The position numbers and the translations under genes were made by a program. A model generated the notes under the pieces. That model worked only from the letters and a program-made list of their open reading frames with translations, was not told where the DNA came from and searched no databases. Positions 16,301 to 18,705 of a DNA stretch of 32,167 bases are shown piece after piece. The stretch is from contig CALUVR010000021.1 in NCBI GenBank assembly GCA_944324285.1, positions 1-32,167 on the forward strand, written 5' to 3'. This stretch comes from Candidatus Gastranaerophilales bacterium (GTDB lineage Bacteria; Cyanobacteriota; Vampirovibrionia; Gastranaerophilales; Gastranaerophilaceae). Positions within the stretch are counted from its first letter, which is position 1. Each line of letters starts with the position of its first letter.

Positions 16301-18705
16301 TGTTAAAGTCAGAGTGTTATCGCCGGATTTGGTAAAATTACCGGAAATTCCGTCTTGCGTTGTAATTTTGCCTGCTTTAAGCGTATAATCATTAGTAAAA
16401 TTTAATTCAACCCCGCCGTTTGCACCTGTCACAACAGTTGAATCCAGCATTGAAGCTTCACTTCCGTAGGTCAAAGTGCTATCTGCGCCGATATTTGCAT
16501 TCCCGTTAAATTTTGAGTTATCCCCGTTGAGGATTAATTTCCCGCCGTCAGAGAGTTCTATTGAACTTTCTGCGCCATCTGCAGTTATAAGGCTGCCTGA
16601 AATAGTATCAGCATTATCTGATACAGAGCCGTTTACAAGGAGTTTACCTGTGGTTCCGTCTGCACCTGCTGCAAAATAAATATCGTTTCCGGCTTCAAAT
16701 GTATTTCCGCCTTGAAGAGTTACATTTGTTGTCGTATAAATTGCACTCCCGAGCGCCTCTCCTGCTGCAGAACCCAATGTCCAGTTATCCTTAAATGTCG
16801 TATTTGCAAGGTTGAGGGTACCTTCATTATAAATTGCACCGCCTAAAGCTGATGAAGTTTCACTGCCTGTTGCCTGCGCACTATTTGCACTTATTGTTGT
16901 ACCGTTTATTGTCAGGTTTCCGCTATTATATATGGCGCCGCCAAGTGCACTCCCTTCAACAGATACAGCTTTATTTCCGCTTATTTCTCCGCCTGAAATT
17001 GTTGCAATATTTGTGTTGTAAATGGCACCGCCTGCGGAATTTCCTGTATTTGATGAAATGTTGTTATCTGTAAAATTTGAATTTGTAGTATTTAAGGTTC
17101 CTTCATTATAAATCGCTCCGCCCTGTGCGTTATTTGACTCATTTGCATTGGCATAATTCCCGCTGAGGGTTGAGCCTGTAATGGTGGTAGTGCCGGCGGC
17201 GTTGTAGATTGCGGCACCTTGAATATCCGAATTTTCAGACGTCACATAGTTCTCTTTCAATTCGGTACCGGTAATTGTCATTGAATTTGTGTTATAAACA
17301 GCGCCGCCTTGAGCGTTGCCGTTTATAGAGTTAGCAGAGTTTTGGATTATTTCTCCGCCTTCAATTTTGCCTGTTCCGCTGTTATAAAATGCCCCGCCCT
17401 GCGCAGTTCCGTCAACAGAGGACGCCATATTGGAACTTATTGTTGAATTTTGTACATTTGTGGTGCCGTTTGCGTTATGAACGGCGCCGCCAGATGCATT
17501 CCCTTTACCTTGAGAACCTGCTTTGTTTCCGTTTAATGTTACATTTGTCAGTGTTGACGTTCCGCCCGCATTATAAATTGCACCGCCTGACGCATTTGAG
17601 GCTTCTGATTCTGCGCTGTTGCCGCTGACGCTTGTATTACCGGAGATTGTCATTGAATTTGTATTATAAACAGCACCACCCTGAGCATTGCCGCTTGTGG
17701 AAACCGCAGTGTTTTGACTTACTTCCCCGCCTTCAATTTTACCAGTTCCACTGTTATAAAATGCCCCGCCCTGTGCTGCACCTTCAGCCGCAGAAGCTTT
17801 ATTCTCAGTCAGTGTGGAATTTGTAAGTGCAGTTGTACCGCTTGCATTGGAAACAGCTCCTCCCTGTGCGTTACCGGTGCCTGTGGTTTCAGCAAAATTC
17901 AGGTTTAGCTGAGTACCTGTAAGTGAGGTTGTCCCGCCGGCATTGCTTATTGCACCGCCTTGAACGTTTCCGTTTTCTCCTGTGACGCGGTTATTTTCAA
18001 ATGCAGCATTTTCTGCAGTAAATTTATTTTTATTATATACAGCGCCGCCCTGTGCCGTGCTTGTGTTTATTGCTTCTATGTAATTGTCGCTGAAGCCGGA
18101 ATTATTTGCATTAATAGTTCCGTTATTTGATATGGCGCCGCCATAAAGAGATTTTTTGACTATTGAACCTGATTTTATTGAAATAAAGTTGTTAATGAAA
18201 TTTACATTATTAAGGACTGCAGAAGATGCTTCATCATTAAGTGTCAATGCTGTTCCGGATATCAGGCTTTCGTTTGACGTCTGCGAAGGATTGCTGAAAT
18301 TCGTGAAATCCAGATTGTTGATTGTTAAAGTTGAATTTTCTAATATGTATCCGAGATTTTCTCCTCCGTCAATGGAATACCGTGCGTTTTGGGGAGTTTC
18401 TCCTTCAGTTTCTTCAGTTTTGCTCTGTATTATTAAATCCGTAACTTTAGCAATAGTTGGCAGGTTGTTTGATAGAGTAAGAGAGTTAAGTATGTTTAGG
18501 GTGTTGTTATTCGAATAATATGCAGGATTATTTATACCACCATCCGAAGCGGTAGCGTTGCTTATATTAAGAAGCCCCCCCCCCCCTCTGTAAGTCCAGT
18601 ATTTTCGGCATATACAGGCATATTAAATGCCGAATTGCCCAAAAAGATTGCACATGCCAACATAAATTTAAATATAGATTTAGTTTTTGATAGTCCCTCT
18701 TTCAT
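7388..18705 (-). CDS. Giant Pmp/PATR-type autotransporter adhesin, frame-broken at a poly-G tract
   Basis: This is predicted to be an outer-membrane autotransporter. The leader starts at ATG 18705 with an AGGAG ribosome site five bases upstream and encodes a typical signal peptide (basic start, hydrophobic core, cleavage after VYA near residue 34). It then reaches 12 G (18586-18575) and, as written, stops at 18562. The passenger continues in another frame, open from 18622 to the TAA at 7388. One G more, or two fewer, joins them into about 3,772 residues.

The passenger opens with about 15 chlamydial-Pmp-like GGAIYN/FxxN repeats to roughly codon 530 after 18247. It continues with many autotransporter-associated PATR-type repeats (G-x-L-x-K-x-G-x-G-x-L-x-L-x-G-x-N), interspersed Pmp clusters and an acidic Pro/Glu insert near 14930-15015. 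The last 273 residues (from M at 8209) form the beta-barrel. I noticed no cysteine. A Lys-rich tail follows the final strand. Confidence 0.85.
17281..17850 (-). repeat. Internal tandem duplication of about 372 bases in the passenger
   Basis: Segments starting near 17281 and 17653 match closely at a constant offset of 372 bases (124 codons). The matches include the TTGAATTTGT phrase (17281 and 17653) and CCGCCTTCAATTTT (17355 and 17727). At protein level this repeats a block of about four Pmp-type units, including GGAFYNSGTGKIEGGE and GGAVYNTNSMTI. The copies differ mainly at third positions and in linker residues, so the duplication is not very recent. Outer limits are approximate. Confidence 0.65.
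18575..18586 (-). repeat. Poly-G (12) tract between signal peptide and passenger: candidate phase-variation switch
   Basis: Twelve consecutive C on the plus strand read as 12 G in the coding strand, about 40 codons into the autotransporter gene. With 12 G the leader frame ends at a stop at 18562. With 13 or 10 G the leader reads straight into the long passenger frame. Homopolymers of this length mutate by slipped-strand mispairing, so the element is placed like a classical contingency switch. An assembly or sequencing error in the run would look the same. Confidence 0.8.

Follow-up and report, generated by a model that had tools for sequence, protein, structure and literature searches.

Poly-G tracts in a giant autotransporter gene and in type IV prepilin leaders point to a slipped-strand phasome in the Gastranaerophilaceae

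Background

Repeat-driven switching can extend over a multi-gene phasome, as it also does with pilC in Neisseria. The opa genes of Neisseria are paralogous surface genes which switch independently of each other through repeats near their 5' end (PMC3745409). To our knowledge, phase variation at homopolymers occurs mainly in proteobacterial and campylobacterial pathogens and commensals (PMC3723659, PMC6321876), and autotransporters are among the proteins concerned. In Neisseria meningitidis both NalP and MspA are phase-variable autotransporters, and immunoblots confirmed that NalP is ON at 7, 10 or 13 C (PMC3723659). The CapD autotransporters of Campylobacter carry a poly-G tract within the reading frame; in the related CapC, where the tract lies upstream of the start, the intact or inactive status was found to be independent of tract length, pointing to decay (PMC7168839). 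In Streptococcus gallolyticus, expression of the Pil1 pilus is controlled by phase variation of a leader peptide combined with attenuation (PMC3894217).

In this work we focused on a giant autotransporter gene of a bacterium belonging to the Gastranaerophilales, in which a run of 12 G separates the signal peptide from the passenger. The mechanism class is already known, since autotransporters of Neisseria (PMC3723659) and Campylobacter (PMC7168839) carry homopolymers in their coding sequence. The initial annotation of this DNA knew of no described case in the lineage, and our literature search likewise found no paper reporting homopolymer phase variation in Gastranaerophilales or Melainabacteria. 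From comparisons of sequence we consider it highly probable that the G12 tract acts as a phase switch near the 5' end of the autotransporter coding sequence, and that it belongs to a lineage-wide phasome operated by slipped-strand changes in poly-G tracts.

Methods

The window analysed here is the whole stretch of 32,167 nucleotides of contig CALUVR010000021.1 (assembly GCA_944324285.1, Candidatus Gastranaerophilales bacterium, family Gastranaerophilaceae), numbered on the forward strand. The host genome, G000, is a draft MAG of 2.03 Mb in 55 contigs. Five genomes of the family were examined in detail (G000, G011, G012, G021 and G033; loci L054-L082, L100-L159 and L205-L264), the sample from G012 and from G021 consisting of the first 30 tracts of each. 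Tracts were called ON or OFF according to the frame read from the upstream ATG with the best Shine-Dalgarno match.

Results

The autotransporter gene lies on the minus strand of the window. A Shine-Dalgarno sequence, AGGAG (18715-18711), is located 5 nt upstream of ATG 18705, from which MKEGLSKTKSIFKFMLACAIFLGNSAFNMPVYA is read, followed by the mature stretch ENTGLTE and by a tract of exactly 12 G (18586-18575), the putative switch. The first 33 amino acids (18705-18607) were recognised by eye as a Sec signal peptide, probably cleaved after VYA. Past ENTGLTE the frame continues as GGGGFLI and ends at TAA (18564-18562), which closes a short leader ORF of 47 aa (18705-18562) corresponding to the OFF state. 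The passenger frame is open from stop to stop over 3744 codons (18622-7388) and has no plausible start of its own: its earliest candidates, TTG 18247 and ATG 17653, both lack a Shine-Dalgarno sequence and neither gives a signal peptide, and a start codon within this frame was rejected for want of any with a Shine-Dalgarno sequence. The leader and passenger frames overlap over the tract, and by frame arithmetic the gain of one G or the loss of two (13 or 10 G) fuses them. All these elements, namely the start with ribosome site and signal peptide at 18705, the 12 G leading to the stop at 18562, the startless frame from 18622 and the two fusing lengths, had been proposed in the initial annotation and were found as described there; its reading of the sequence as given as the OFF state was borne out too, 12 G leaving leader and passenger out of frame.

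Upstream of the gene, a consensus scan that returned 6 sites, against 4.0 expected in shuffled sequences, gave a weak promoter-like match, GTAACA-17-TATAAT (10/12; 18814-18786, minus strand). A perfect 13-bp inverted repeat with a 4-nt spacer (18764-18793) adjoins its -10-like box and is a putative operator. Fourteen nucleotides at 18776-18789 reappear in inverted orientation at 18917-18930, close to a divergent TPR gene. The neighbours of the autotransporter gene code for orotidine-5'-phosphate decarboxylase, a TPR protein and ComEC, and among them there was no sign of an operon shared with it. Elsewhere in the window, a repeat-rich, surface-like ORF of 947 aa (3527-6370, plus strand) begins at an ATG without signal peptide or Shine-Dalgarno sequence and may be truncated at its 5' end; its C-terminal part looks PilZ-like by eye, and the ORF has no Pfam match.

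The predicted protein has the three parts of a type Va autotransporter. Only with 10 or 13 G does the Sec signal peptide, seen by eye, become continuous with the passenger. The passenger (18571-11501, minus strand) is made of beta-helical repeats of the Chlam_PMP (GGAxYN; PF02415, E 7e-12), PATR (PF12951) and TIGR02601 types. The C-terminal outer-membrane beta-barrel domain (8245-7460, minus strand) matches the NCBIfam model TIGR01414 (E 5.2e-14), the last 337 aa scoring 52.1 bits against a cut-off of 16. The Pfam Autotransporter model found no match in the protein, nor did a profile of the barrel alignment among PDB sequences.

The tract is far longer than chance would produce, and 9 or more G in a coding region or promoter is what is expected of a slipped-strand gene. 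The second-longest G/C run in the window is 6. When the decay of run lengths in the host genome was extrapolated, about 0.07 runs of at least 12 and about 4.7 runs of at least 9 were expected in 2.03 Mb; 36 tracts of at least 9 G were observed. Genomes of the host's family carry a median of 34 such tracts, those of the sister families a median of 2 (Mann-Whitney P 1.5e-7). Since runs of 12 G are prone to error and the host genome is a draft in 55 contigs, the length itself might be an assembly or sequencing error in a gene that is really in frame. We regard this explanation as very improbable: an error of length cannot account for the existence of the tract, an in-frame tract of 13 or 10 G would still be a hypermutable site, and the same class of tract is present in many independent assemblies. 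A pattern combining leader and tract, taken from the host genome, was found in six DNA stretches belonging to four records among 84,980 species genomes, a scan that may omit the window's own record; three of these records bear the name Melainabacteria or Gastranaerophilales, and the fourth is an 'uncultured bacterium'.

Besides prepilin genes, the tract-bearing genes include those for a Stealth-type phosphotransferase, an RgpF-like protein and two glycosyltransferases, one family 2-like and one of family 11. Further G000 tracts fall in an intergenic repeat: at contig C33, positions 1182-1206 (L082), as at L065, L069, L077 and L081, G9-G10 stands in a repeat with CCCTCTCCC/AAGGGG-like sequence, away from gene starts. 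Other autotransporters with a tract were found in two genomes (three in G005 and one in G011), where it lies upstream of the signal peptide; including the G12 gene, 5/5 tract-bearing autotransporters are OFF as assembled. The layout had been called classic for slipped-strand variation on account of the out-of-frame state and the position of the tract. Both features stand, except that among the tract-bearing autotransporters only this one has the tract directly behind the signal peptide, the others having it in front.

Those homologues of the giant autotransporter gene whose 5' end was inspected carry no tract. In G013, which belongs to another genus of the same family, signal peptide and passenger form one open frame and no G/C run of 5 or more lies near the start; the homologues in G010, G389 and G185 are fused likewise and free of the tract. 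No tract at this gene was seen in the close homologues among 383 family genomes searched, of which 8 match, including the window's own; for three matches (L200, L201 and L204), where a different frame was taken, the observation is that no G/C run of at least 9 lies near the match. The G12 tract seems to have been added in the host species and not to be ancestral in this gene. In the comparison with sister genomes that the initial annotation had suggested, length differences were seen at other tracts (see below), and the homologues inspected have no tract at this one.

This absence from homologues, together with the out-of-frame state as assembled, would fit a pseudogene in which a fixed frameshift marks a gene on its way out. 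Decay elsewhere in the gene, put forward earlier as the sign of a pseudogene, was looked for and none was found: the frame has 0 stops across 3744 codons (about 11 kb) and no further frameshift, and the barrel, 82% identical to its relative in G013 (dN about 0.13, dS about 2.3), has a dN/dS of about 0.06. Gene decay was rejected on these grounds, and as dozens of intact genes share the same layout, we give the pseudogene explanation very little credit. A phase switch, by contrast, requires that a change in length toggles an otherwise intact frame, as is the case here.

About 20 of the 36 G000 tracts occupy one site, between the ATG leader and the GFTLAEV sequence of type IV prepilin genes. A Shine-Dalgarno sequence and ATG come first, 9-12 codons (frequently MKTIDMTEF) lead to the G tract, and a short distance behind it stands GFTLAEVLITLGIIG, the cleavage and methylation motif of type IV prepilins. 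The class III signal with its N-methylation motif was found, and the PF07963 model scores 22.7 bits for L069 (cut-off 21.2) and, slightly under the cut-off, 20.5 bits for L054. This layout was present in all related genomes sampled; the five genomes examined in detail contain about 20, 41, 37, at least 27 (G012) and at least 24 (G021) prepilin tracts, with G on the coding strand and within the leader. Tract-free prepilins in the same stretches mostly have a plain short leader such as MRKAFTLAEV. The joined leader-pilin frame is open from the tract to the prepilin motif, whereas the stop frequency of the other two frames predicts 33-71 stops per genome, the count excluding stop-interrupted copies (1/21, 0/41, 1/38, 0/24, and 16/27 in G012). 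The preservation of this frame speaks for a joined product that is made and is under selection.

Five prepilin genes of G033 (L101, L104, L110, L112 and L119) have C10-C11 in place of G on the coding strand, and next to the tract these C-type leaders resemble the G-type leaders read in reverse complement. One tract-bearing prepilin gene is shared by two species (L064 near 10702 in G000 and L158 near 1641 in G011); its 99.5% identity over 758 bp suggests a recent transfer between them.

Tract length varies between closely related copies. In a tandem prepilin pair of G033 (L114), about 60 bp on each side are nearly letter-identical, with a tract of G12 in one and G10 in the other; a second tandem pair (L120) has G11 and G10, and the orthologues L078 (G000) and L143 (G011), whose DNA is 91% identical over 252 bp, have G10 and G11. 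Tracts of G15-G18 also exist. Within a genome lengths are concentrated, the modal prepilin tract being G10 in G033 (33/41), G11 in G011 (25/34) and G000, and G13 in G021 (15/24). This modal length leaves most prepilin genes one G off the ON state: one G must be gained in G033 and lost in G011, G000 and G021, both kinds occurring in G000. Only 14/127 prepilin tracts are ON, against 1/3 expected by chance (P 5e-9, with paralogues treated as independent, which they are not fully), a figure drawn from MAG consensus sequences, which hide mixtures and in which long-read assemblies can mis-size homopolymers. The ON fraction is below 1/3 in 5/5 genomes, G021 alone not being significant (5/24, P 0.14).

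States so far from random are not predicted by free slippage alone, and call for selection for OFF, for a length equilibrium combined with selection, or for another way of reading the tract. The last would be programmed slippage, the main rival explanation, in which RNA polymerase or the ribosome would slip with a fixed frequency when crossing the G-run and yield a low, steady amount of full-length protein from unchanged DNA. Near-uniform lengths within a genome, nearly all paralogues in the same non-ON frame and a joined frame selected to stay open would all agree with it. As a single uniform mechanism it is weakened by the shift required, which differs among genomes and even within G000; moreover, 14/127 copies are already in frame, the tracts of near-identical copies are 1 or 2 G apart in length, and lengths of 15-18 G occur. 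We therefore consider programmed slippage unlikely and, under slipped-strand switching, interpret the OFF bias as the result of selection that keeps most loci OFF in most cells, the lengths lying around an equilibrium determined by slippage. Loss of mismatch repair was rejected as a cause of instability: MutS (MutS1) and MutL are complete in the host genome, so the lineage does not rely on such a loss.

In G012 (L207, L208, L210, L214 and others), and once in G000 (L062 near 3988), the G-tract leader forms a separate upstream ORF. Behind it come about 100 conserved nt, with ACCTCC and a putative CCGTG..CACGG hairpin, and then a pilin gene with its own Shine-Dalgarno sequence and ATG. By analogy with Pil1, this variant is possibly an attenuation-type switch.

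Discussion

Slipped-strand switching, which the initial annotation had proposed, is strongly favoured over decay or a lone assembly error by dozens of tracts at the same position of surface genes, by length differences between copies and by a joined frame that appears to be selected open. Slippage of DNA polymerase would lengthen or shorten the tract one G at a time. With 10 or 13 G, translation would run from the Sec signal peptide into the passenger, and a protein of about 3,760 aa would reach the surface (ON); any other length, the assembled 12 among them, would end translation seven codons past the tract start, and no protein would be exported (OFF). For this gene the switch is read from the tract itself, the variation in length having been seen in paralogues and orthologues at other tracts. 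The phasome would comprise tens of type IV prepilins, a few other autotransporters and some surface-glycan enzymes, each with this kind of tract at the 5' end and mostly OFF, a single G away from ON. Given that the G-run recurs where dozens of pilus genes begin, in this genome and in its relatives, gain or loss of a single G probably turns surface proteins on and off in these commensals. Populations would thereby switch, and the benefit may be surface diversity against phages or host immunity, or for adhesion.

A more specific reading, which we put forward tentatively and at somewhat less than even chances, is that the Gastranaerophilaceae keep a default-OFF, near-exclusive display, with tens of prepilins and several giant autotransporters held one G from ON, few of them shown per cell, and some tracts acting in leader peptides that relieve an attenuator. 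If true, the phylum Cyanobacteriota would have its first homopolymer phasome, with one of the largest pilin-switching repertoires. A phasome acting on prepilin leaders and giant autotransporters in gut Cyanobacteriota would reshape the study of their adhesion, motility and phage resistance, and poly-G tracts could be the reason that these genes are broken up or missed by gene callers.

As far as the literature was searched, the lineage, the position in the prepilin leader, the number of paralogues and the OFF bias are new. The giant autotransporter resembles NalP and MspA in having a coding-sequence homopolymer of which every third length is ON, as predicted here from sequence; those tracts are poly-C in much smaller proteins of Betaproteobacteria (PMC3723659), whereas the present one is poly-G, separates the signal peptide from the passenger and belongs to a cyanobacterial class. 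Poly-G within an autotransporter coding sequence is shared with Campylobacter CapD, and, unlike in the CapC case, the frame is otherwise intact (PMC7168839). The G012 prepilins are similar in layout to S. gallolyticus Pil1, whose pilus genes are under the control of a repeat within an upstream leader peptide (PMC3894217); Pil1 differs in its GCAGA repeats, its pil1 operon and its transcription terminator, and the layout of the giant autotransporter is unlike it. Finally, like the opa and pilC phasomes of Neisseria, the predicted phasome comprises several paralogous surface genes with repeats near the 5' end, but here it is the type IV prepilins that form the paralogous set; a genome has 20-40 or more of them, and the tract lies in their leader.
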